Shown one piece after another: positions 11,801 to 23,162 of a stretch of DNA of 36,886 bases. Under the pieces are notes generated by a model. It worked only from the letters and a program-made list of their open reading frames with translations. It did no database searches and had not been told where the DNA came from. The number at the start of each line of letters is the position of its first letter. Position 1 is the stretch's first letter. Origin of the DNA: Thermoproteota archaeon (GTDB lineage: Archaea > Thermoproteota > Methanomethylicia > Culexarchaeales > B10-G16); assembly GCA_003649185.1 (NCBI GenBank), contig QMRB01000007.1, positions 1-36,886 on the forward strand. Direction: 5' to 3'. The translations under genes and the position numbers were made by a program.

Positions 11801-12673
11801 ATGAACTTAAGGGAGAAGGAAATCGTTTTAATGGAGATTCAGCCCCATCCAATAGCATTCATGGATTTATACATTATATTTTTAGTTCCCATTTTAATTA
11901 ACATTTACTTAATATTTAAAGCAAACTATATTGTTGGAAGCATCCTGCAAATTTTAAATGTAGAATTATTGTCGGAAGATCAAATGAAGATGATTATTTG
12001 GACATTAATGAACATATTTCCATTTATAATAATGTTTCTTGTAAAATCGGCGGTTAAATGGTTGCTTATAGGAAGCCTTATGATAATAGTTGCAATAATA
12101 ATTAAAATTCAATATGGAGTATCATGTGAAATTTTGGGAATCATATTCGGAATCATCGGTCTAGGTTTAACAAACATATATCGAAAAGCGCATAAATACT
12201 ATATTACAAATGAAAGAATAGTGATGGAGTTCAAATTTATAAGACATAAACATAGGGAGATTGAACTTAGAGATATAAGGGAACTGATCGTTGAAAAGGG
12301 AATTATAGGAAGAATACTGGATGTTGGAACAATACTGCCCATAACATCTTCAGGTCTAGGAATTGGAGAAGACATTTCGATGATAGGTGGCGCAGGAAAA
12401 ATTAAAAATATAAATATAGGAATTGGAGCTGGAAGGACAATTAAAGTTCCTAGAGGAAGAAGCCCATACACTCTTTTCGGAGTGAAGAAGCCGCTGAAAA
12501 TTAAAGAGCTCATCTCAAAAGAAAAAAGCAAACATGAAGAAGACCACATATTAACCGAGATATCAAATAAACTTGAAAGAATAATTGGAGATGAAGAAAA
12601 AGAAACTGCTACCCTTCATGAGAAGAGGATAGAAGATTCAGGGAGAGAAGGCTTAAATCGATTTCAGCTTTAG
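11801..12673 (+). CDS. Membrane protein with a bacterial-type PH (DUF304-like) domain
   Basis: The 290-residue protein has hydrophobic segments at about residues 20-42, 65-90 and 95-125, so it is probably anchored by three or four membrane helices. The soluble region 'KYYITNERIVMEFKFIRHKH' through 'REIELRDIRELIVEKGIIGR' matches the bPH2/DUF304 pattern: strand, 'ITNERI', basic residues, then 'ELRDI'. A glycine-rich stretch (about 180-215, 'SSGLGIGEDISMIGGAGK') is unusual for the family. The C-terminus is charged and coiled. The function is unknown; PH-like membrane proteins of this type are poorly characterised. The last 65 nt overlap the convergent KITE gene. Start ATG at 11801 with GGTGA 10 nt upstream and a TATA-like ATAAATATT further up. 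Confidence 0.65.
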   Translation: MNLREKEIVLMEIQPHPIAFMDLYIIFLVPILINIYLIFKANYIVGSILQILNVELLSEDQMKMIIWTLMNIFPFIIMFLVKSAVKWLLIGSLMIIVAIIIKIQYGVSCEILGIIFGIIGLGLTNIYRKAHKYYITNERIVMEFKFIRHKHREIELRDIRELIVEKGIIGRILDVGTILPITSSGLGIGEDISMIGGAGKIKNINIGIGAGRTIKVPRGRSPYTLFGVKKPLKIKELISKEKSKHEEDHILTEISNKLERIIGDEEKETATLHEKRIEDSGREGLNRFQL

Positions 12674-13166
12674 CTCTCCACCCAATCCTCAATAATTCTC
12701 CCTCACTCTCCAAATAGCCTAACCTGATAAACCGGTCGATGAGAGAGTCAACCCTCCACCTCGGCAATTTCTCAATAAGAATCGATTCCAATTCCCTCCT
12801 ATTAATGGAACCGCCTTTCGAGTTGATATAGGCTAGAGAAGCTGCCAAAGCTCCTACATCATCTATTCTTAGGCCGGCTGTTAAAACATCAGAAATTTTA
12901 GCGGGCTCCCTAAAAGTTACGAGGAAAATTGCTTTATCATAATCTTCAGCTGTAGGAGATGAAACATCACCTGTAAAAATAGTCTTCACAGTTAAACCGA
13001 ATCTAGCCAACTCCTCATCTACAAGCTTTATAATATTCAAGTAGCGTCTACCCAAGGCACGTTTAAGCTCCCAACCCTTAACTCCCGGACGTCTATGCCT
13101 CTGAATTAAAAGAAGCTGGACAGCTCTTCTCAGCTTGGATAAGTAATCAATTCTCTTTCGACTCAC
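12609..13166 (-). CDS. Tandem winged-helix protein, KITE-like (ScpB/Nse3-type) partner of an SMC complex
   Basis: The 185-residue protein is the last gene of the SMC operon. It appears to hold two winged helices. The first spans about residues 1-80 ('RRAVQLLLIQRHRRPGVKGW' then 'LKRALGRRYLNIIKLVDEEL'). The second spans about 105-165 ('ALAASLAYINSKGGSINRRE' then 'IEKLPRWRVDSLIDRFIRLG'). This two-WH layout and length are those of KITE proteins (ScpB, MukE, Nse1, Nse3), and the order resembles the MAGE domain of Nse3. GTG at 13166 is chosen because GGAGGTGT (13178-13171) precedes it at ideal spacing. An upstream ATG at 13247 would need a 100-nt overlap. It overlaps the kleisin stop by 20 nt, implying translational coupling. 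Assignment is by pattern and operon position, not by strong sequence identity. Confidence 0.6.
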   Translation of the reverse strand: MSRKRIDYLSKLRRAVQLLLIQRHRRPGVKGWELKRALGRRYLNIIKLVDEELARFGLTVKTIFTGDVSSPTAEDYDKAIFLVTFREPAKISDVLTAGLRIDDVGALAASLAYINSKGGSINRRELESILIEKLPRWRVDSLIDRFIRLGYLESEGELLRIGWRAKAEIDLSLLSLNLLSSSHEG

Positions 13167-13944
13167 ATTTACACCTCCTAACCCATTCATCAAAACTGAA
13201 TGAAACAGTAATGGAATATGAGTTTTCAGATTCAATTCGCCTTTCATTTGGAATTATAATATAATCTCTAGAAGATGGATCAAACTCTAAATGTATGTAG
13301 CCGTAAGTGGAGAGAAAAGAGAGCATGTAAGCCTTCAGCAGCGAACTTTCAAAATCCTCTGAACATATAAAATTCCAATAATAAACGCCTCCTTCAACAT
13401 ATTTTTTCTTTAAAGTTTCCCAAAACTTCTCCAACATTTCCGAAAAGGAACCTTTCAAGGCAAGTTTCTCCCTAATTAGATCTTCAATCGAAGTTAATTC
13501 GGTTCCCACAGAAGCCTCTGGAAGACGGCCCCATCTACCCTTAAGTGGAGGAAGATTAACCCAATAATTGGCAGCAGTCTCAAAACCCTTATTGGAGATT
13601 AGAGAAATGGAAACTATAGGCCGCCAAGCTGAAGCAAAAACCTTTGCAAGATTCTTTAAACTCATCGATTTAATCTTCCACTCGATAAGCATTGGATCGA
13701 AATATAAGGTGGAGGATCTACTTTTAATCCAGTCTCCCTGAAGCTCAACTATTCTACTTACATTTTCCAAAGCGTTAAGATCTAAAGCGAGATCTTCAGG
13801 TGACAAGGAACTTTCAATGTAACTTCTTAAAACTTTAAGGTAGCGTGGAACATCAACTTCAAATGGATCGGAACCACGTTTTATAACATATTTGCAGGCT
13901 TTAACTATCCTTTCAATCCTCCTCTTATCAGACTTCTTCCCCAA
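13147..13944 (-). CDS. Kleisin-like (ScpA-type) subunit of the SMC complex
   Basis: The protein is about 265 residues long. Its N-terminus reads 'SDPFEVDVPRYLKVLRSYIE', then 'DLALDLNALENVSRIVELQG', then 'DWIKSRSS'. This is the spacing of the ScpA N-terminal helical domain ('DPw.iDI...YLe', 'DL...aefl..Aa.Ll.iKSr'). The C-terminus 'FESSLLKAYMLSFLSTYGYI' followed by 'HLEFDPSSRDYIII' resembles the ScpA C-terminal winged helix that grips the SMC head. The middle is variable, as expected of a kleisin linker. TTG at 13944 follows GGTGGT and overlaps the SMC stop by 17 nt. The earlier ATG at 13989 is less likely because it extends deeper into the SMC gene and has no good SD. An Nse4-like protein is the alternative reading. 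Confidence 0.58.
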   Translation of the reverse strand: MGKKSDKRRIERIVKACKYVIKRGSDPFEVDVPRYLKVLRSYIESSLSPEDLALDLNALENVSRIVELQGDWIKSRSSTLYFDPMLIEWKIKSMSLKNLAKVFASAWRPIVSISLISNKGFETAANYWVNLPPLKGRWGRLPEASVGTELTSIEDLIREKLALKGSFSEMLEKFWETLKKKYVEGGVYYWNFICSEDFESSLLKAYMLSFLSTYGYIHLEFDPSSRDYIIIPNERRIESENSYSITVSFSFDEWVRRCKCESKEN

Positions 13945-15790
13945 TTTGAACCACCTTCGGCGTGGATCTGCCTCCAACATTCTGAACAAATATTACATGT
14001 ATATTTTTCACATCCATCATAATTGGACTCGGCGTTATAGCTAAACATTGAATTCGCCCATCGCCGGCAAAGGATGATAGAAGAAGTTTAGATATAATTT
14101 CTCTATTTCTAGGATCCATGTGTACATCGAACTCGTCGACCGCTCTAAAAGGCGACTTTATGAAGCTTTGAACAGCTAGAAGAAAAGCCATGACAGCTGT
14201 GGTTCTTTCACCTCCACTCTGAGAGAAACCATTTAAAATTGAAGGTGAACTTCCCTTAAATCCTACGAGAATCTCTAAGCCAGCGTTTTCAACATCCTCT
14301 AAATTAACCAATTTTACATGGCCATATGCACCTATCTCCCTTAATATTTCGACATATACTTTATCAACCTTCGACAATATATTGCTTAAAGCTTTCTTCC
14401 AAGCGTTTACTCGAATATTTAACTCCTCCATCACCATTTTCCTATTTTCCCTTAAAATTTCAACTCTCCTCCTCAAATCTTCAACGGTATTTAAATATGA
14501 TTTATAGAGCTTTTCAGCCTCAGGTGAAACTTTTCCAACAGCATCCAACCTTGCTTTAGTCCATCTTAACTCGTCTAAAACTTCGTTGAGATCTCTGATG
14601 AGCTTCGGCTTCAATCCAGCATTTTCAGCTTCCATTAAAAGTTTTTCCTCTTCTCTTCTCTCATAATTTAACCGATCCTTTAAAGTTTCAATATCCGAAT
14701 TTAAAAGCCCCAATTTATATTTAAGAATACCAGAGTTGACTTTGAGATCTACATACTTCTCCAAAATTTCATTGAACATGTCTGAAAGCTCATTTAAAAG
14801 CTCCTGTAGATGAGTATACCTTTCCAATTCAACATTTAAATCCACATTATATGTTGTTGGTGGAGGCTGATTGGATAATTTAAGGGAGGAGAGAACGTCG
14901 CCTCTACCGATATTTCTGGCAGATTCAACTAAAAGGTTAATGGTTTTCTTTCTTTCAAATTCGAAAACTCTCAAGCGATCTTCAGTCTTCTTCAACTCTA
15001 AATTAATCCTGTTAATTTCATCGCCAATGCTCTGTGATTGAAGAAGAAGCCTTTTCAAATCCTCCTCTAAACCTGAAATTTGCCGCCTCTTCTTCTCAAC
15101 CTTAGCCCACACCAACTCCAAGTTTAGAGATTTGATCTTAGCTGACAGCTCTCTTCGAACTCTAAGCTTCTCATATTCATTTCTCCAATATTCAAGTGTG
15201 CTCTTCGCCCTCTCCAGTAGACTGGAGACATTTGCCTCCTCCCTTGAAATCCCTTCCAATCTCTCCTTCATTTCTAAAACTCTACGTCTATAGCCGCTTA
15301 GTCCAACAGCATCCTCAAACAATTTAAGTTTCTCTTTAGATGACACTATGGCGAACTCTTCAACCATATTTTGATGCATTATTATAAGCATGTTGTCAGG
15401 ATTGAAACCCATGGTTTTAAGAATCTCTTGAACTTCACCTTTAGTTTTAACTTTACCGTTAACTTCAAACCAGTAAGATCCATCTTTACGGAGATATCTG
15501 GATATTCTAATAGTGTTACTTCTTATTTTTCCATATGGTCGACGGCCATTTACAGGTTTATTATCGATGATCACAGCAACTCTAGCTATCTTCGAACCCC
15601 ACCTTATAAGATCACTTAAACGTCTGCCACGTTCAGTATATTTGGTTCCAAGAGCAACTGATATAGCTAATAGGATGGAGGATTTGCCGGCGCCATTGGG
15701 ACCAGTAATAATGTTGAGCCCTGGGTAGAGGGGAATTCTTCCAAACTCATAGGACATGAAATTTTCCAGTATTACTTCTCGAATCAGCAC
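13928..15790 (-). CDS. SMC5/6-like ATPase with short arms and no recognisable hinge
   Basis: The 620-residue ABC-type head protein has Walker A 'GPNGAGKSS' at 30-38 and an SMC-like 'EDAVGLSGYRRRVLEMKERL' at the neck. Coiled coil runs over roughly 165-285 and 320-470. The ABC signature 'SQSGGERTTAVMAFLLAVQS' is near 523, and Walker B 'SPFRAVDEFDVHMDPRN' near 546-562 has catalytic E553. The QSGGER plus PFRxxDEFDVxMD combination is typical of Smc5/Smc6. Rad50 and SbcC have LDEPT instead. The turn between the coils (about 285-315) is only some 30 residues: no SMC hinge domain and no CxxC zinc hook. GTG start at 15790 with GAGGGA 8 nt upstream. First gene of the SMC-kleisin-KITE operon, and likely ATP-driven DNA loop or entrapment activity at the chromosome. 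Confidence 0.85.
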   Translation of the reverse strand: MLIREVILENFMSYEFGRIPLYPGLNIITGPNGAGKSSILLAISVALGTKYTERGRRLSDLIRWGSKIARVAVIIDNKPVNGRRPYGKIRSNTIRISRYLRKDGSYWFEVNGKVKTKGEVQEILKTMGFNPDNMLIIMHQNMVEEFAIVSSKEKLKLFEDAVGLSGYRRRVLEMKERLEGISREEANVSSLLERAKSTLEYWRNEYEKLRVRRELSAKIKSLNLELVWAKVEKKRRQISGLEEDLKRLLLQSQSIGDEINRINLELKKTEDRLRVFEFERKKTINLLVESARNIGRGDVLSSLKLSNQPPPTTYNVDLNVELERYTHLQELLNELSDMFNEILEKYVDLKVNSGILKYKLGLLNSDIETLKDRLNYERREEEKLLMEAENAGLKPKLIRDLNEVLDELRWTKARLDAVGKVSPEAEKLYKSYLNTVEDLRRRVEILRENRKMVMEELNIRVNAWKKALSNILSKVDKVYVEILREIGAYGHVKLVNLEDVENAGLEILVGFKGSSPSILNGFSQSGGERTTAVMAFLLAVQSFIKSPFRAVDEFDVHMDPRNREIISKLLLSSFAGDGRIQCLAITPSPIMMDVKNIHVIFVQNVGGRSTPKVVQIGEEV

Positions 15791-15867: not shown

Positions 15868-16539
15868 ATGGTTTTATCTGCAAAAATATATGAAGTAAGA
15901 GAGAAGCAGCCTATTAGAAGTTTAGCGCGTAAACTGTTTAACTATAGGGTGGAAGAAGAAGAGGAGGGAAGAAGACTTATCACGGAAATCACGGATTTAG
16001 AGGTAGCTGGAAGAAGGCTTAGAGGAGTATACTCTAAAGACATGATAATATTCATCAATAGAAGAGGTGAGAAGACCCCTACATTAATTACAAGGGAGTC
16101 GCCATTCACATTCACAGAATATGATGATAGACTTCTTTTAACAATAATTGGGAAGAAGAATTGGGCCAACTATGTGGCAAATGAGCTGAGCAAAATATTG
16201 TTTATAACCATTGGAAACATAGTTGAAGTTAAAATTAAAGCTGAAACTTTAAGGAGATATCATGAAGAGAATCCTGAAGGAACAAAAGTAATCTTTTTCG
16301 ATAATGTGGATATACCTAACGTTGATAAGCTCAGCCTATATGGCCCTGACCTCATGAACACAACCCTATACAATCAATACTTATCGCATGGAAATATATG
16401 GTACATTGTAGCAACATCCAGAAAATTCGGATATATTATAGGTATAACTAGAAACTGCGTTATAACCGCGTTCAGCAAGATAAGTGAATATGACTTCATG
16501 AGGTTTATAGAGGAAGAAATATATCCATTGATAAGTTAA
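15868..16539 (+). CDS. Uncharacterised archaeal protein divergent from the SMC operon
   Basis: I do not recognise this family. The 223-residue protein is mixed alpha/beta, soluble, with no signal peptide. Striking internal strings are 'GKKNWANYVANELSKILF', 'EGTKVIFFDNVDIPNVDKL', 'HGNIWYIVATSRKFGYIIGI' and 'TRNCVITAFSKISEYDFMRF'. The strands and conserved-looking D/N residues suggest a real enzyme or binding domain. ATG at 15868 is chosen because GGTGAT (15858-15863) precedes it; an in-frame TTG at 15856 would include the SD site. It shares a 77-nt divergent promoter region with the SMC-kleisin-KITE operon, which makes joint regulation or function possible but unproven. Confidence 0.75.
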   Translation: MVLSAKIYEVREKQPIRSLARKLFNYRVEEEEEGRRLITEITDLEVAGRRLRGVYSKDMIIFINRRGEKTPTLITRESPFTFTEYDDRLLLTIIGKKNWANYVANELSKILFITIGNIVEVKIKAETLRRYHEENPEGTKVIFFDNVDIPNVDKLSLYGPDLMNTTLYNQYLSHGNIWYIVATSRKFGYIIGITRNCVITAFSKISEYDFMRFIEEEIYPLIS

Positions 16540-17036: not shown

Positions 17037-18053
17037 TTAATCCACCAATGGAAGAACTTCAGCATCAAAATGGCGCTCTAACCAATTTGAAAATTCCTTA
17101 GCAAAATATCCGAAAGGATAAATCCTTCTAGCACCTGACCCTTTAACATATGAGACAAGCTGAGAGAAGTCGGCGTGATTGCTAAGAGGAAATGTAGCGT
17201 CGAAACGTCTATAGGGGAAGAGAAGAGACCATCCCGTAGCAATAGCTCTCAACATTCCAAATGAACTTGCCATAACAAGGTTTCGCTTATTGGAAACCAC
17301 TGCTGGAAGACACTTCGACTTAAGAACTTCTAGACCCTCATTTGAAGCAAGATTTAAATATTTCAATTCAATTCCGAAACGCTTATAGATCGTGTTTACC
17401 CGGTCAATTTTCTCGTCGACGAGAACCTCCAAATCTAAATATTTATTTATTAAAGCGATAAGCTCCTGCGCCTTACCAATAGAGTAGGCGATGAAAACGG
17501 GAGGAGTATCAGCCTTGACTGCTCTTTCAATGAAATCAGCTATCTCCTCGTAAATTTTAATCCTATCCGGAAAGGTTATGCCAGGTTTACCGTAAGTAGC
17601 ATCAATGATCAACTCGTCGCATGGAAGGATTTTTCCAGCCTCACTAATTAAAGTTGACTTAAGATTTAAATCGCCAGTATAAACGAGAGTTGAAAATCCA
17701 CTTTCGAATAGGAATTGCGAGGAGCCTAGAACGTGGCCTGAATTATACATTTCCACATCGATTGAACCTAAATTGAAACGCTGAGACATCATAAATCCGG
17801 GATAAATGTTTTTAACCCTTCTACCCGTTTGGGCCTCGTAGAGTTTGATAGTTAAATATGAAGCTAACTTCGGCTTTTCGGATTTAAAGCCAGCAATATG
17901 ATCTCCATGGGCATGGCTGATAAGGATGAAATCACCCTCAGAAATCTTGGATAGAGGATCTAGGGATAAAGAGATATCTCTCAACAATAAAAGGATACCT
18001 TTAAACCAGTATATTGACCAATTTGGAACCATATTGAAAACCTTATTTCTCAA
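17037..18053 (-). CDS. MBL-fold nuclease of the beta-CASP / SNM1-like exonuclease family
   Basis: The 338-residue metallo-beta-lactamase-fold protein carries the metal motifs 'SHAHGDHIAGF' (HxHxDH), 'NSGHVLGSSQF', 'YTGDLNL' and 'DATYGKPG'. The late histidine motif is in 'FPLSNHADFSQLVSYV'. This set is that of predicted mRNA 3'-end/Artemis-type and ligase-associated exonucleases. It is shorter than the ~630-residue archaeal CPSF-type (aCPSF1) enzymes and has no KH domains, so it is not aCPSF1. The TTG start overlaps the stop of the upstream PDCD5-like gene as TTGA. Another start, ATG at 18032, is possible. It is the third gene of an AroM / PDCD5-like / MBL operon. DNA or RNA specificity cannot be read from sequence. 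Confidence 0.85.
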   Translation of the reverse strand: MRNKVFNMVPNWSIYWFKGILLLLRDISLSLDPLSKISEGDFILISHAHGDHIAGFKSEKPKLASYLTIKLYEAQTGRRVKNIYPGFMMSQRFNLGSIDVEMYNSGHVLGSSQFLFESGFSTLVYTGDLNLKSTLISEAGKILPCDELIIDATYGKPGITFPDRIKIYEEIADFIERAVKADTPPVFIAYSIGKAQELIALINKYLDLEVLVDEKIDRVNTIYKRFGIELKYLNLASNEGLEVLKSKCLPAVVSNKRNLVMASSFGMLRAIATGWSLLFPYRRFDATFPLSNHADFSQLVSYVKGSGARRIYPFGYFAKEFSNWLERHFDAEVLPLVD

Positions 18054-18415
18054 ACTCTTCTAAAGTATTCGCTTAAAGGCTTTCTCTTTCCCTTCTCCTC
18101 ATAGTATATTTTTGTAGGCATTCTAATTTTCAACCCCAAGTCTAAGAAGAGCTGATAAAGAGAATATCCTGTGATGATGCTTTTAATCTTTCCCTCCTTA
18201 ACAAGTCTTGCAAGCACATCGACTATTCGTTTCGTCTCTCTGGGAAATTGTTGCTCAGCAACCTTTAAAACTTCCTTTGCCTTCTCGCTGAGAAGACTAT
18301 TTAAAAGCTTTAAAGGATCCTCAGAGATCTCTCTATCGGATTTTTTCAAACGCCTACTCAGCTCGGCCAGTCTCTTCATCTTTAAAAGTTCAAGTTCAAT
18401 GTCACGCTCATCCAT
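18050..18415 (-). CDS. PDCD5/TFAR19-like DNA-binding protein
   Basis: About 121 residues. The helical N-terminal part ('ELELLKMKRLAELSRRLKK') is followed by 'LSEKAKEVLKVAEQQFPRET' and 'KRIVDVLARLVKEGKIKSII', the spacing and sequence type of the archaeal/eukaryal PDCD5 helical core. It differs from the canonical family in a longer C-terminal region ('YQLFLDLGLKIRMPTKIYYE') instead of the short charged tail. It is therefore a relative or variant rather than a clear orthologue. ATG at 18415 is chosen over 18427 because GGTGA lies 5 nt before it. It overlaps the MBL nuclease gene by 4 nt, a sign of tight coupling and possibly a functional pair. Confidence 0.6.
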   Translation of the reverse strand: MDERDIELELLKMKRLAELSRRLKKSDREISEDPLKLLNSLLSEKAKEVLKVAEQQFPRETKRIVDVLARLVKEGKIKSIITGYSLYQLFLDLGLKIRMPTKIYYEEKGKRKPLSEYFRRV

Positions 18416-18458
18416 CACTCTCACCATCTACTATAATTGAAATGGTTCCCCTTAAAAC

Positions 18459-19457: not shown

Positions 19458-22400
19458 ATGCAGCAAGAAGTTTACGCAATATTCAGAAAACAGTGTCCAA
19501 ACTGTGGAGGAGACATATCAAATCTAAGATTAGAGCTGAAGATACCATGTGAGAAATGCATTCCAATACCTGACAAAGAGTTACTTCAAAGCTTACCATT
19601 AAATAATGTAAGGGAGACTAGGAGAAGAATACTTGAACTCCTAAAGAAGAATGGAACATTAAATAGATATAATAGAATACTTGAGGTGGAGGAGAAGGTT
19701 GACAGATTAAATGATCTCTTCGAAAAGATCAGTGGAAGCACATTATGGAGTGCTCAGAGAACATGGTGTAAACGGGCATTTGAAGGAAAAAGTTTCTCAA
19801 TAATAGCTCCAACAGGGATGGGGAAAACTGTCTTTGGAATAATGCTTTCACTTTACATTGCAATGGAAAAGAAGAGAGCATATATTATTTTACCGACCAC
19901 TCTACTTGCACAGCAAGTGCATGAAAAAATAGAGGAATATAAAAGTAAGTTAGATTTGAAAATAAAGATAAAAGCATATTATACATCGATAGCTGCAAGC
20001 AGAAAAAAGGATATTTTAAAACAAATCTTCGAAGAAAACTATCAAATTCTAGTAACAACATCAAATTTTCTATCAAGATATTATGAGAAAATGAGGGATA
20101 GAAGATTCGACTTAATATTCGTCGATGATGTAGACAGTTTCATGAAGACGTCGAGAAATGTGGAGAAAGTTTTGAAACTACTCGGATTAGATCAGGAGAT
20201 CATAGAGCTAGGATATGAAGCAATAAATCTGAGAAGGAAAATTAAAAGAATTTATGGTAGGAGAAGGCTGAATAAAAAGGAACTTGAAAATTTAAACAAA
20301 AAACTTGAAAATATAAGAAAAAGGATAGAAGATTACAAAAGGAAGAATAAAATAGGAGTATTAATAGTTTCAGGAGCATCCATAAGGGCGCGGAGAACAA
20401 GAAGAATTCAACTCTTCAGAGAACTTTTAGGATTTGAAATAGGGGGGAGAATGGAGGGTATAAGAAACGTTGAAGACATGTACATAATGGCAAAGAAAGG
20501 GAACATCGCCAAACACGTCTTGAAACTCGTCAAAAAACTTGGAAGCGGAGGACTAATCTTTACACCGATGGATAAGGGAAGAGAATACATGAAGAAGATT
20601 ACAGAAGAATTGGAGAAAAATGGAATAAAAGTTGAAAGCGTGGAAAGGCCTAGAAGAAAGCTATTGATGAAATTTAGAAAAGGTGAATACGACATCCTCG
20701 TAGGTATGGCATCATATAGAAGTCCATTGGCAAGGGGAATAGATCTACCTGAAAGAGTAAGATACGCCATATTTGCGGGAGTGCCGAAAATTAAAATAGC
20801 ACTTAACATAGATGAGTTCAACCCCTTCAAAGCAATAGCCCTCTTAGCAAATCTAAGAGACTTTACAAAGCGGAAAAGTGAGAGAATAAAAATAGATAAC
20901 AAGATTATCGAACTTAGAAGATATTCTTGGATGATCAATGAAAAGCAATGGGAAATGATAAGAGAAGCAATTGAGAAAAAAGTGAAATTGGAAGGATTTC
21001 TAGGCAAAATGCAGAGAATTGTCGAAGAAACAGTAAATCTCATAAAGAATATGCTGAAAAGGGAAGATGTGAGAAAAGGAATAAAGAAAAGCTCCTACTT
21101 AGACATTGAAGAAGGAGAGAAAGTATCAATAATAATACCTGACATAGTCGGATATCTTCAAGGAAGTGGAAGAACATCGAGACTATATGCTGGAGGAATC
21201 TCAAAGGGAATAGCAATAATAATAGTGGACAACGTTAAAGCATTCAACGGATTAAAAAGAGGATTAAAATGGTATTTGGAAGACGTTTCATTCAGCAGAG
21301 TAAATGAAAAGAGAATAAAGGAAACCATGAAGAAGGTGGATGAAGATAGAGAGAAGATAAGGAGGATGAGAAGAGGAGAAATTACAGGAAAGACGAAGGA
21401 AACTGTAAAGACAGCACTGCTAATAGTGGAGTCGCCGAATAAAGCGAGAACTATAGCAAGATTCTTCGGAGTACCGCAAAGAAGAGAGATAAATGGAGTT
21501 ACAATATTTGAAGTTAGTACAGGAGAATACATTTTAAACATAGCATCAAGCAGGGGACATATATTCGACTTGGTAACCGATGAAGGATATCATGGAGTCG
21601 CAACCATATATGGAAAACTCGTCCCAATATATGGTACAATAAAGAAATGCAAAAAGTGCCATCAACAATATACAGACGACGTTAAGAAATGTCCTCTATG
21701 TGGAGGGCCCCTTGAAAACAGAGGAAAAATGCTAGATGTATTGAAAAGGATCGCTGGAGAAGTAGATTACCTTCTGATAGGAACAGATGCAGATTCTGAA
21801 GGAGAGAAGATAGGATGGGATTTATCGGTAATATTGTCACCATACACTAAAAATATAAGAAGAATCTACTTCCATGAGGTAACTCAAAGAGCACTTAGAA
21901 GAGCATTACAAACTCCAACCGGTCTAAACATCAAATTAGTTGAATCACAGATTTTGAGAAGAATAGAGGATCGATGGATAGGTTTCGAGCTAAGCGGAAA
22001 AGTACAGAGAAAATTTAATAGAAGAGATCTATCAGCGGGAAGAGTACAGACACCAGTACTTGGATGGATCGTTAAAAGAATGAAAGAATCGAAGAAGGAG
22101 ATCATGGAATTATTCGAAATAACATTGGAAAATGGATTGAAAATAATATTAAGAATGGAGAAGATGCCGAAGAAGAAGATAAGGGAAATATTAAATGAAA
22201 TTAGAAGATCAAAGATAAACATCATTGAAGTAGAAAAGCTGGAAGTTGAGAGAAAACCGCCACCACCATTCTCCACCGATACTATGCTCGAGGAAGCTTC
22301 ACGAAAGTTAAAGTTTAGTATAAAGGAAACCATGCAATTGGCTCAAGATCTCTTTGAAGCTGGACTGATAACCTATCATAGAACAGATAGCATAAAAGTC

Positions 22401-23162
22401 TCAGCAATAGGAGTGAAGATAGCTCAAGAATATATAGTAGAGAAGTGGGGAAAGGAAAATTTCAAACCGAGAGTTTGGAGCAGAGAGGGGGCACATGAAT
22501 GCATAAGGCCGACGAGAGGAGTTGATGCGGATAGATTGAGAAGTCTCCTGGCCTTAGGAACACTAAGATTACCTAAAAAGTTAACTGGAAGACATATAGC
22601 ACTATATAATTTGATATTTAACAGGTTTATTGCAAGCCAGATGAAGAAGGCGAAAGTATTGAGAGAGAAAGTAAAAGTTGAAGTGATGAATATGAAAATA
22701 GAAGTGGAAAATGATGTGGAAGTATTGGATGCAGGGTTCACTCTAATACTGCCAATAAAATTATCTCAGAAAACTAAACCTGGAAAAATGAATATAAGAG
22801 AAATAAAGCATTGGAGGATAACTGGGAAACCATTATTCTCTGAAGGGGATATAATTAGAATGATGAAGAAGAGGAGAATTGGAAGACCATCCACATACTC
22901 GAAGATAATATCCACTCTACTTGATAAAAGATATGTTATAATGTCTCCTAGAAAGAAGAAGCTCATAGCGACAAGGCTGGGAGAAGAAATATACAAATAT
23001 TTGAATCAAACTTTCAAGAAATATGTTTCAGAGGAGACTACAAGGAAGCTGGAAAAGATGATGGATGATGTTGAAAATGGAAAATTGGATTATATAACAA
23101 TATTGCAAGACTTAAACGAACAGTTGAGGAAAATCTCAGAAAGCTTTAAAACTACTTCTTAA
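19458..23162 (+). CDS. rgy: Reverse gyrase
   Basis: The 1234-residue fusion of an SF2 helicase-like half and a type IA topoisomerase half introduces positive supercoils using ATP. Domains in order: N-terminal zinc finger (C13, C16, C31, C34); Walker A 'APTGMGKT' 117-124 and Walker B 'VDDVD'; helicase motifs through 'YLQGSGRTSRLYAGG'; Toprim 'LLIVESPNKARTIARFFG' with 'TDADSEGEK'. A second zinc finger 'CKKC...CPLC' is near 731-750, and the catalytic tyrosine is in 'LITYHRTDS' (about Y973). 'GAHECIRPTR' and 'GRPSTYSKIISTL' complete the topoisomerase core. All key residues are present and no intein is inserted. Reverse gyrase is the hallmark enzyme of hyperthermophiles. The start ATG has only a weak SD. 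It ends convergently with nucS, overlapping by 11 nt. Confidence 0.97.
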   Translation: MQQEVYAIFRKQCPNCGGDISNLRLELKIPCEKCIPIPDKELLQSLPLNNVRETRRRILELLKKNGTLNRYNRILEVEEKVDRLNDLFEKISGSTLWSAQRTWCKRAFEGKSFSIIAPTGMGKTVFGIMLSLYIAMEKKRAYIILPTTLLAQQVHEKIEEYKSKLDLKIKIKAYYTSIAASRKKDILKQIFEENYQILVTTSNFLSRYYEKMRDRRFDLIFVDDVDSFMKTSRNVEKVLKLLGLDQEIIELGYEAINLRRKIKRIYGRRRLNKKELENLNKKLENIRKRIEDYKRKNKIGVLIVSGASIRARRTRRIQLFRELLGFEIGGRMEGIRNVEDMYIMAKKGNIAKHVLKLVKKLGSGGLIFTPMDKGREYMKKITEELEKNGIKVESVERPRRKLLMKFRKGEYDILVGMASYRSPLARGIDLPERVRYAIFAGVPKIKIALNIDEFNPFKAIALLANLRDFTKRKSERIKIDNKIIELRRYSWMINEKQWEMIREAIEKKVKLEGFLGKMQRIVEETVNLIKNMLKREDVRKGIKKSSYLDIEEGEKVSIIIPDIVGYLQGSGRTSRLYAGGISKGIAIIIVDNVKAFNGLKRGLKWYLEDVSFSRVNEKRIKETMKKVDEDREKIRRMRRGEITGKTKETVKTALLIVESPNKARTIARFFGVPQRREINGVTIFEVSTGEYILNIASSRGHIFDLVTDEGYHGVATIYGKLVPIYGTIKKCKKCHQQYTDDVKKCPLCGGPLENRGKMLDVLKRIAGEVDYLLIGTDADSEGEKIGWDLSVILSPYTKNIRRIYFHEVTQRALRRALQTPTGLNIKLVESQILRRIEDRWIGFELSGKVQRKFNRRDLSAGRVQTPVLGWIVKRMKESKKEIMELFEITLENGLKIILRMEKMPKKKIREILNEIRRSKINIIEVEKLEVERKPPPPFSTDTMLEEASRKLKFSIKETMQLAQDLFEAGLITYHRTDSIKVSAIGVKIAQEYIVEKWGKENFKPRVWSREGAHECIRPTRGVDADRLRSLLALGTLRLPKKLTGRHIALYNLIFNRFIASQMKKAKVLREKVKVEVMNMKIEVENDVEVLDAGFTLILPIKLSQKTKPGKMNIREIKHWRITGKPLFSEGDIIRMMKKRRIGRPSTYSKIISTLLDKRYVIMSPRKKKLIATRLGEEIYKYLNQTFKKYVSEETTRKLEKMMDDVENGKLDYITILQDLNEQLRKISESFKTTS

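Follow-up and report, generated by a model that had tools for sequence, protein, structure and literature searches.

The 36,886-nucleotide stretch of DNA analyzed herein (the window; positions 1 to 36,886 of contig QMRB01000007.1, assembly GCA_003649185.1) is contig C7 of a 1.38-Mb, 76%-complete Thermoproteota genome from the Culexarchaeales. On its minus strand, at 12609-15790, it carries an operon for a structural maintenance of chromosomes (SMC) ATPase, followed by a kleisin and then a tandem winged-helix (KITE) protein (Table 1). The likeliest kleisin start, TTG 13944, has ggtgg in front of it and overlaps the SMC stop by 17 nt, and the likeliest KITE start, GTG 13166, has aggaggtg in front of it and overlaps the kleisin stop by 20 nt; the starts of homologous kleisins and KITEs fall near these two codons. 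An earlier note on this DNA had described three open reading frames with 20-nt and 17-nt overlaps, which we confirm with lengths that match the likeliest starts, as well as the motifs QSGGER and SPFRAVDEFDVHMD, which are both present and have most of their residues invariant among 18 homologues. The three-gene arrangement is not due to chance, because the trio recurs together in all 20 inspected loci, from many families, with order and strand conserved in 19; at locus L259, the kleisin-KITE pair lies 2-3 kb off, on the opposite strand. Further, across loci, the pairwise distances of SMC, kleisin, and KITE are correlated (r = 0.81-0.86), a level that none of 5000 permutations reached.

Table 1. 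Features of the operon and of its conserved neighbor in the window
Feature	Position	Strand	Remarks
SMC ATPase gene	13928-15790	-	620 aa; GTG start at 15790; SMC_N 3e-31
Walker A of SMC, GPNGAGKSS	15677-15703	-	G30-S37 mostly invariant in 18 homologues
Coiled-coil middle of SMC, residues 186-441	14468-15235	-	256 aa; length varies; no hinge, no CxxC
ABC signature of SMC, QSGGER	14204-14221	-	invariant in 18 homologues
Walker B / D-loop of SMC, SPFRAVDEFDVHMD	14114-14155	-	human SMC6 counterpart is SPFRCLDEFDVYMD
Nse4-type kleisin gene	13147-13944	-	likeliest start TTG 13944; listed open reading frame 13147-13989, 280 aa
C-terminal winged-helix domain of kleisin	13249-13446	-	AlphaFold2 confident core; resembles Nse4 and ScpA C-terminal domains
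KITE gene	12609-13166	-	about 185 aa, tandem winged-helix; likeliest start GTG 13166; listed open reading frame 12609-13247, 212 aa
Conserved divergent neighbor	15868-16539	+	about 223 aa; candidate associated gene; no family match

To place the SMC among known branches, a profile of 18 homologues (the mini-SMC profile) was searched against all PDB chains, with an 18-sequence profile of canonical archaeal SMC as a control. The top matches of the mini-SMC profile were yeast SMC5 (219.5 bits), human SMC6 (215 bits), and yeast SMC6 (211 bits), followed by human SMC5 and prokaryotic Smc (161, 159 bits), and then by the SMC1-4 paralogues (SMC2 129, SMC1 119 with human SMC1 at 77, SMC3 112, and SMC4 106 bits). 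The control ranked them the other way around, with SMC1-4 at 463-549 bits (best per paralogue 496-549, in the order SMC3, SMC2, SMC4, SMC1) and SMC5 and SMC6 at only 127 and 120 bits. The Walker B region SPFRxxDEFDVxMD is common to the window SMC and to human SMC6. In a tree of ATPase heads, SMC5 and SMC6 group with the mini-SMC and with hinge-bearing SMCs from Asgard archaea (support 97/92), and SMC2 and SMC3 group with canonical SMC (100/100); with SMC5 or SMC6 included singly, the same larger group is recovered (96/91 and 95/92). These comparisons make a strong, though not final, case for placing the window SMC on the Smc5/6 branch rather than with SMC1-4 or Rad50, which upholds the preference of the earlier note for Smc5/6 over Smc-ScpAB or Rad50.

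One alternative is an ATPase of the Rad50/ASRP type (coalescin, Sph) that works without a kleisin, which would fit the short, coalescin-like coiled coil and the weak matches of NCBIfam Rad50 and ASRP models to the N-terminal head. However, the Rad50 models score below 65 bits against cut-offs of at least 700, the ASRP model scores 35 bits against a cut-off of 300, and kleisin and KITE genes adjoin the SMC. Further, a CxxC zinc hook, which ASRPs have (PMC9389158), is found in none of 20 proteins of the mini-SMC family. On the profile scores and the missing zinc hook, we reject a Rad50/ASRP identity for the SMC and give this explanation almost no credence; a grouping of the ATPase with Rad50/SbcC in profile searches, named in the earlier note as an outcome that would overturn its proposal, did not occur.

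The ATPase motifs of the window SMC are intact in the alignment of 18 homologues, and what lies between the heads is greatly shortened. No SMC_hinge match was found in the window SMC, and the domain is absent from the families common to its 18 homologues. The inter-head stretch is 256 aa in the window and 217-320 aa in its relatives, relative to 811 aa in a canonical SMC and 472 aa in the Asgard form (112-aa hinge included). Each arm would thus comprise about 128 residues, or about 19 nm if wholly helical. Genomes usually hold one copy of this SMC family, which is coherent across families, rather than two distinct genes of the Smc5 and Smc6 types.

The second gene encodes an Nse4-type kleisin. 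Pfam Nse4_C matches 21 of 23 kleisin homologues (best 1.6e-7; E 0.19 for the window's own protein), and the best PDB sequences for the kleisin profile are the human NSE4-family protein EID3 (8e-6) and yeast Nse4 (0.002). Family searches returned no ScpA-family match for the window kleisin or its homologues, and the ScpA-type kleisin of the earlier note was rejected in favor of Nse4/EID3, to which the family matches, the PDB profile search, and the fold matches point. In the AlphaFold2 model, a disordered linker joins a helical N-terminal domain to a C-terminal winged helix, and a fold search with this model ranked yeast Nse4 chains first and second, then RAD21 and ScpA, with at least eight of the first nine matches being kleisins. 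The E-values of these fold matches are modest (0.001 and above) because the linker is disordered.

For the third protein, AlphaFold2 predicts a tandem winged helix (predicted local distance difference test score, pLDDT, of 83). The first five ranks of its fold search are chains from Nse1-Nse3 (MAGE) structures, followed by the Wadjet protein JetC in sixth place, and then by Nse subunits of Smc5/6 and by MukE. MAGE sequence matches were obtained for 6 of 23 KITE homologues; a comparison of the KITE profile with PDB sequences gave nothing useful, whereas the fold search did find relatives. As modeled, the KITE is a tandem winged helix of the Nse1/Nse3 type. The operon has a single KITE gene, encoding a protein without any cysteine, and thus offers neither a second KITE nor the RING of Nse1.

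Taken together, the sequence comparisons and predicted folds make it likely that the three proteins of the operon are the core subunits of an archaeal SMC-kleisin-KITE complex that falls on the Smc5/6 branch and acts as an ATP-gated head clamp. The full subunit set, its archaeal context with a KITE of its own, and its reduced size, all put forward in the earlier note, are borne out by the kleisin and KITE folds, the former of Nse4 and the latter of Nse1/3 type; models of the two partners lacking kleisin and winged-helix folds, the other outcome it had named as adverse, were not obtained. With the core of eukaryotic Smc5/6, the system shares the SMC branch, the Nse4-type kleisin, and the Nse1/Nse3-type tandem winged-helix KITE. 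It differs from eukaryotic Smc5/6 in having one SMC gene and one KITE gene instead of two of each, no hinge, arms of about 40% of canonical length, and a KITE without a RING; Nse2, Nse5, and Nse6 were not seen in the operon, and no genome-wide search for them was made. Because a second SMC, a second KITE, and a hinge are missing, we do not count the complex as a member of eukaryotic Smc5/6, although by inference from its likeness it may work like the Smc5/6 core.

Judging from its parts and from structures of yeast Smc5/6, such a complex could operate as follows. Two copies of the single SMC would engage head-to-head on two ATPs, and the Nse4-like kleisin would form an asymmetric bridge between them, in which its helical N-terminal domain would bind one SMC at the neck and its C-terminal winged helix would bind the other at the cap. 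A KITE dimer would be seated on the flexible kleisin linker. As in yeast Smc5/6, ATP binding would then trap DNA in a clamp made of heads, kleisin, and KITE, from which hydrolysis would free it. Since no hinge is present, no large hinge-closed ring would form, which argues for a head clamp, that is, a short-stroke compactor or holder of DNA, rather than for a 50-nm loop extruder.

Of 61 surveyed genomes, 39 have the SMC family (a tally of 42 includes three weak matches that are SMC-type proteins of other kinds), and 38 have the kleisin, never without the SMC; in the lone genome with the SMC but without the kleisin, the SMC gene runs off the contig end. In the phylum of the window, the kleisin occurs in 156 of 398 genomes and 78 of 163 genera, and in the phylum of G402 (a Euryarchaeota record), it occurs in 31 of 295 genomes. 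In the latter, kleisin and KITE are adjacent in five of five loci (L304-L308), with no SMC in the flanks, and a mini-SMC lies elsewhere in five of six kleisin-bearing genomes searched. The same SMC is among the matches listed in Thermofilales, Bathyarchaeota, and Thaumarchaeota genome records by a contig profile search that returned mostly generic SMCs. With hinge-bearing Asgard forms included, the SMC-kleisin-KITE family is spread over three archaeal phyla and is deeply diverse.

In the class of the window, the mini-SMC system is the only SMC-kleisin complex found. Specifically, none of the 40 surveyed genomes of this class (G000-G039) has a full-length canonical SMC, and their best canonical-model matches (E ~1e-25 to 1e-40) are mini-SMC or other short frames; no ScpA match was found in the window's own 76%-complete genome. 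This class-wide absence of canonical SMC does not stem from incomplete assemblies, because many genomes of the class are more than 95% complete. Other classes of the phylum carry canonical SMC, and several genomes hold both systems. Where canonical Smc-ScpA is missing from a lineage, the mini-SMC complex probably serves to maintain and repair the chromosome, and it is a candidate chromosome organizer for this group of archaea, which showed no canonical SMC.

Several points weigh against an ATP-gated head clamp of the Smc5/6 branch. First, in sequence, the KITE matches MAGE and Nse1 weakly (best 0.0026), and its identity rests on the predicted fold for that reason. Second, eukaryotes are represented in the head tree by four sequences taken from search output, of which three comprise the N-head only; how mini-SMC, Asgard forms, and SMC5/6 branch relative to one another is not settled by the head trees, and an approximately unbiased (AU) test rejected neither a placement of SMC5 and SMC6 beside canonical SMC and SMC1-4 (p = 0.11) nor one with the Asgard forms alone (p = 0.23). 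Third, SMC dimerization without a hinge is an assumption, and the proposed repair role is drawn from gene neighborhood and analogy. Finally, the window's own genome is 76% complete. The AU result for canonical SMC would also suit a reduced or fast-evolving canonical Smc-ScpAB, in which the likeness to Smc5/6 would be convergent or a long-branch effect, as would the finding that, for the single window SMC sequence, SMC_prok_A is the best NCBIfam model (175 bits; cut-off 729). Archaeal and bacterial Smc-ScpA(B) shares with the window an SMC-kleisin design built on one SMC gene, and it is unlike the window in its SMC1-4-type SMC of about 1180 aa with a hinge, in its ScpA-type kleisin, and in generally lacking a KITE in its archaeal form (PMC7055376). 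Given these differences in kleisin and KITE, the opposite ranking of SMC1-6 by the mini-SMC and canonical profiles, and the genomes that carry a mini-SMC plus a canonical SMC, we regard a derived Smc-ScpAB as quite improbable and favor a complex of the Smc5/6 branch.

A further possibility is that the operon is an anti-plasmid or anti-phage defense system resembling Wadjet (JetABCD) or Lamassu, with an SMC motor that recognizes foreign DNA. Wadjet JetABC and MukBEF have in common with the window the SMC-kleisin-KITE set and the KITE fold, and they differ from it in their kleisin and SMC branches. The nuclease JetD belongs to Wadjet, and MukB is far longer. Apart from the JetC fold match, a defense role would accord with matches of the SMC head to PADLOC mad3 (1e-29) and LmuB (4e-14), as expected of any SMC-type head, and human Smc5/6 itself restricts extrachromosomal DNA (PMC10586767). 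The operon, however, adjoins no JetD or other effector gene; its kleisin and KITE have no PADLOC match and are nearer to Nse4 and Nse1/3 than to Jet proteins; and its neighbors are housekeeping and repair genes. The usual single copy per genome, coherent across families, and the lack of any relative on viral contigs in one scan with the kleisin profile likewise speak against defense, which we consider unlikely; on that scan, a viral or mobile origin was rejected as well.

Asgard archaea hold counterparts of the operon. In four Asgard genomes (loci L232, L233, L234, and L240), an SMC of the 850-aa type shares one operon with a kleisin and a KITE; the order is that of the window, and all three proteins match the mini-SMC family profiles, with a KITE profile comparison of 97%. 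The Asgard operon is unlike that of the window in that its SMC has a hinge (SMC_hinge 3e-13 in the protein tested), in that the three loci reaching far enough have an AAA ATPase gene immediately upstream, and in the ubiquitin E1/E2/RING genes adjoining two loci. These ubiquitin-system genes (E2, E1-like ThiF, UEV/RWD-RING, and M48-RING) are at L232:624-4052 and L233:9830-12895, beside the operon. Two further Asgard genomes (L235:5827-12638 and L236:3-6150) show an AAA gene, an SMC (1057/1071 aa), a winged-helix protein, and an Nse4-like kleisin in succession; a KITE pair made up of the L235 genes of 191 and 323 aa beside the kleisin was unsupported by profile comparison. Asgard archaea also have another SMC paralogue, of 1120-1190 aa (L237, L238, L241, L243, L296, L302, and L303), which is neither canonical SMC nor part of the Smc5/6-type group; it was rejected as the nearest relative of SMC5/6 (AU p = 0.012), its top-ranked proteins being SMC2 and SMC3.

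As a hinge-bearing Asgard version exists, loss of the hinge in TACK archaea would be the simpler reading. We lean somewhat towards a scenario in which a Smc5/6 core of one SMC, an Nse4-like kleisin, and an Nse1/3-like KITE predates eukaryotes in archaea and yielded eukaryotic Smc5/6 by gene duplication; in TACK archaea it would have lost its hinge and, in some lineages, would serve as the only SMC-kleisin complex, a head-only DNA clamp. The converse, in which archaea acquired the genes from eukaryotes and then reduced them, dropping the hinge along with one SMC and one KITE, is conceivable in principle, and the branching order of eukaryotic, TACK, and Asgard forms is not settled. Nevertheless, the deep diversity of the family, its wide spread in three archaeal phyla, and the hinge-bearing Asgard forms all oppose acquisition, and one SMC with one KITE is the simpler starting state; we hold acquisition to be very improbable. 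How Smc5/6 arose, and whether it diverged earlier than cohesin and condensin, was left open previously (PMC5228436), and the archaeal SMC-Nse4-KITE operon, along with its hinge-bearing Asgard counterparts, makes it testable whether the split from cohesin and condensin fell before or within eukaryotes. The small archaeal relative described here suggests that the Smc5/6 core is older than eukaryotes and can function even when much reduced.

The SMC subunit has been reported before. In PMC9389158, which cites Yoshinaga and Inagaki 2021, archaea are described as having an "SMC5/6-related" SMC that groups with SMC5 and SMC6, so the statement in the earlier note that archaeal Smc5/6 relatives are known was correct for this subunit. 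That SMC and the window SMC are very probably of the same family; PMC9389158 makes no mention of a kleisin for it. Archaeal Smc complexes were described as generally lacking KITE, and smc, scpA, and scpB as undetected in Crenarchaeota (PMC7055376). Within the open-access literature (subscription papers and preprints being outside this scope), we found no archaeal Nse4-type kleisin or Nse1/3-type KITE described with this SMC and no report of its hinge absence or of its status as a sole complex. Hence, provisionally, the kleisin and KITE partners, the missing hinge, and the sole-complex status appear to be new. Our results would add a KITE-bearing SMC complex to archaea, whose SMC complexes have been held to be generally KITE-less. 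A hinge-less complex, if it works, would allow a test of which functions of SMC complexes depend on a closed ring and on long arms, and a head-only DNA clamp serving as the sole SMC-kleisin complex would, if true, be a new SMC architecture.

Among the genes around the operon, the 223-aa divergent neighbor is at most about 145 bp away from the SMC in 8 of 20 loci; in 2 others it is also near. Of the 20 loci, 7 (L252, L254, L255, L256, L259, L260, and L262) have a gene for a Lhr-type helicase (about 950 aa) no more than about 5 kb away from the SMC operon, and L260 has one on either side. In the window, an exonuclease gene related to TIGR04122 (ligase-associated DNA damage response; 17037-18427, minus strand) overlaps the gene for a PF01984 double-stranded DNA-binding protein. 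The Lhr-type helicases and this exonuclease hint at DNA repair. Also near the operon, at 19458-23162 on the plus strand, lies a gene for reverse gyrase (TIGR01054, 1295 bits), a marker of hyperthermophiles.

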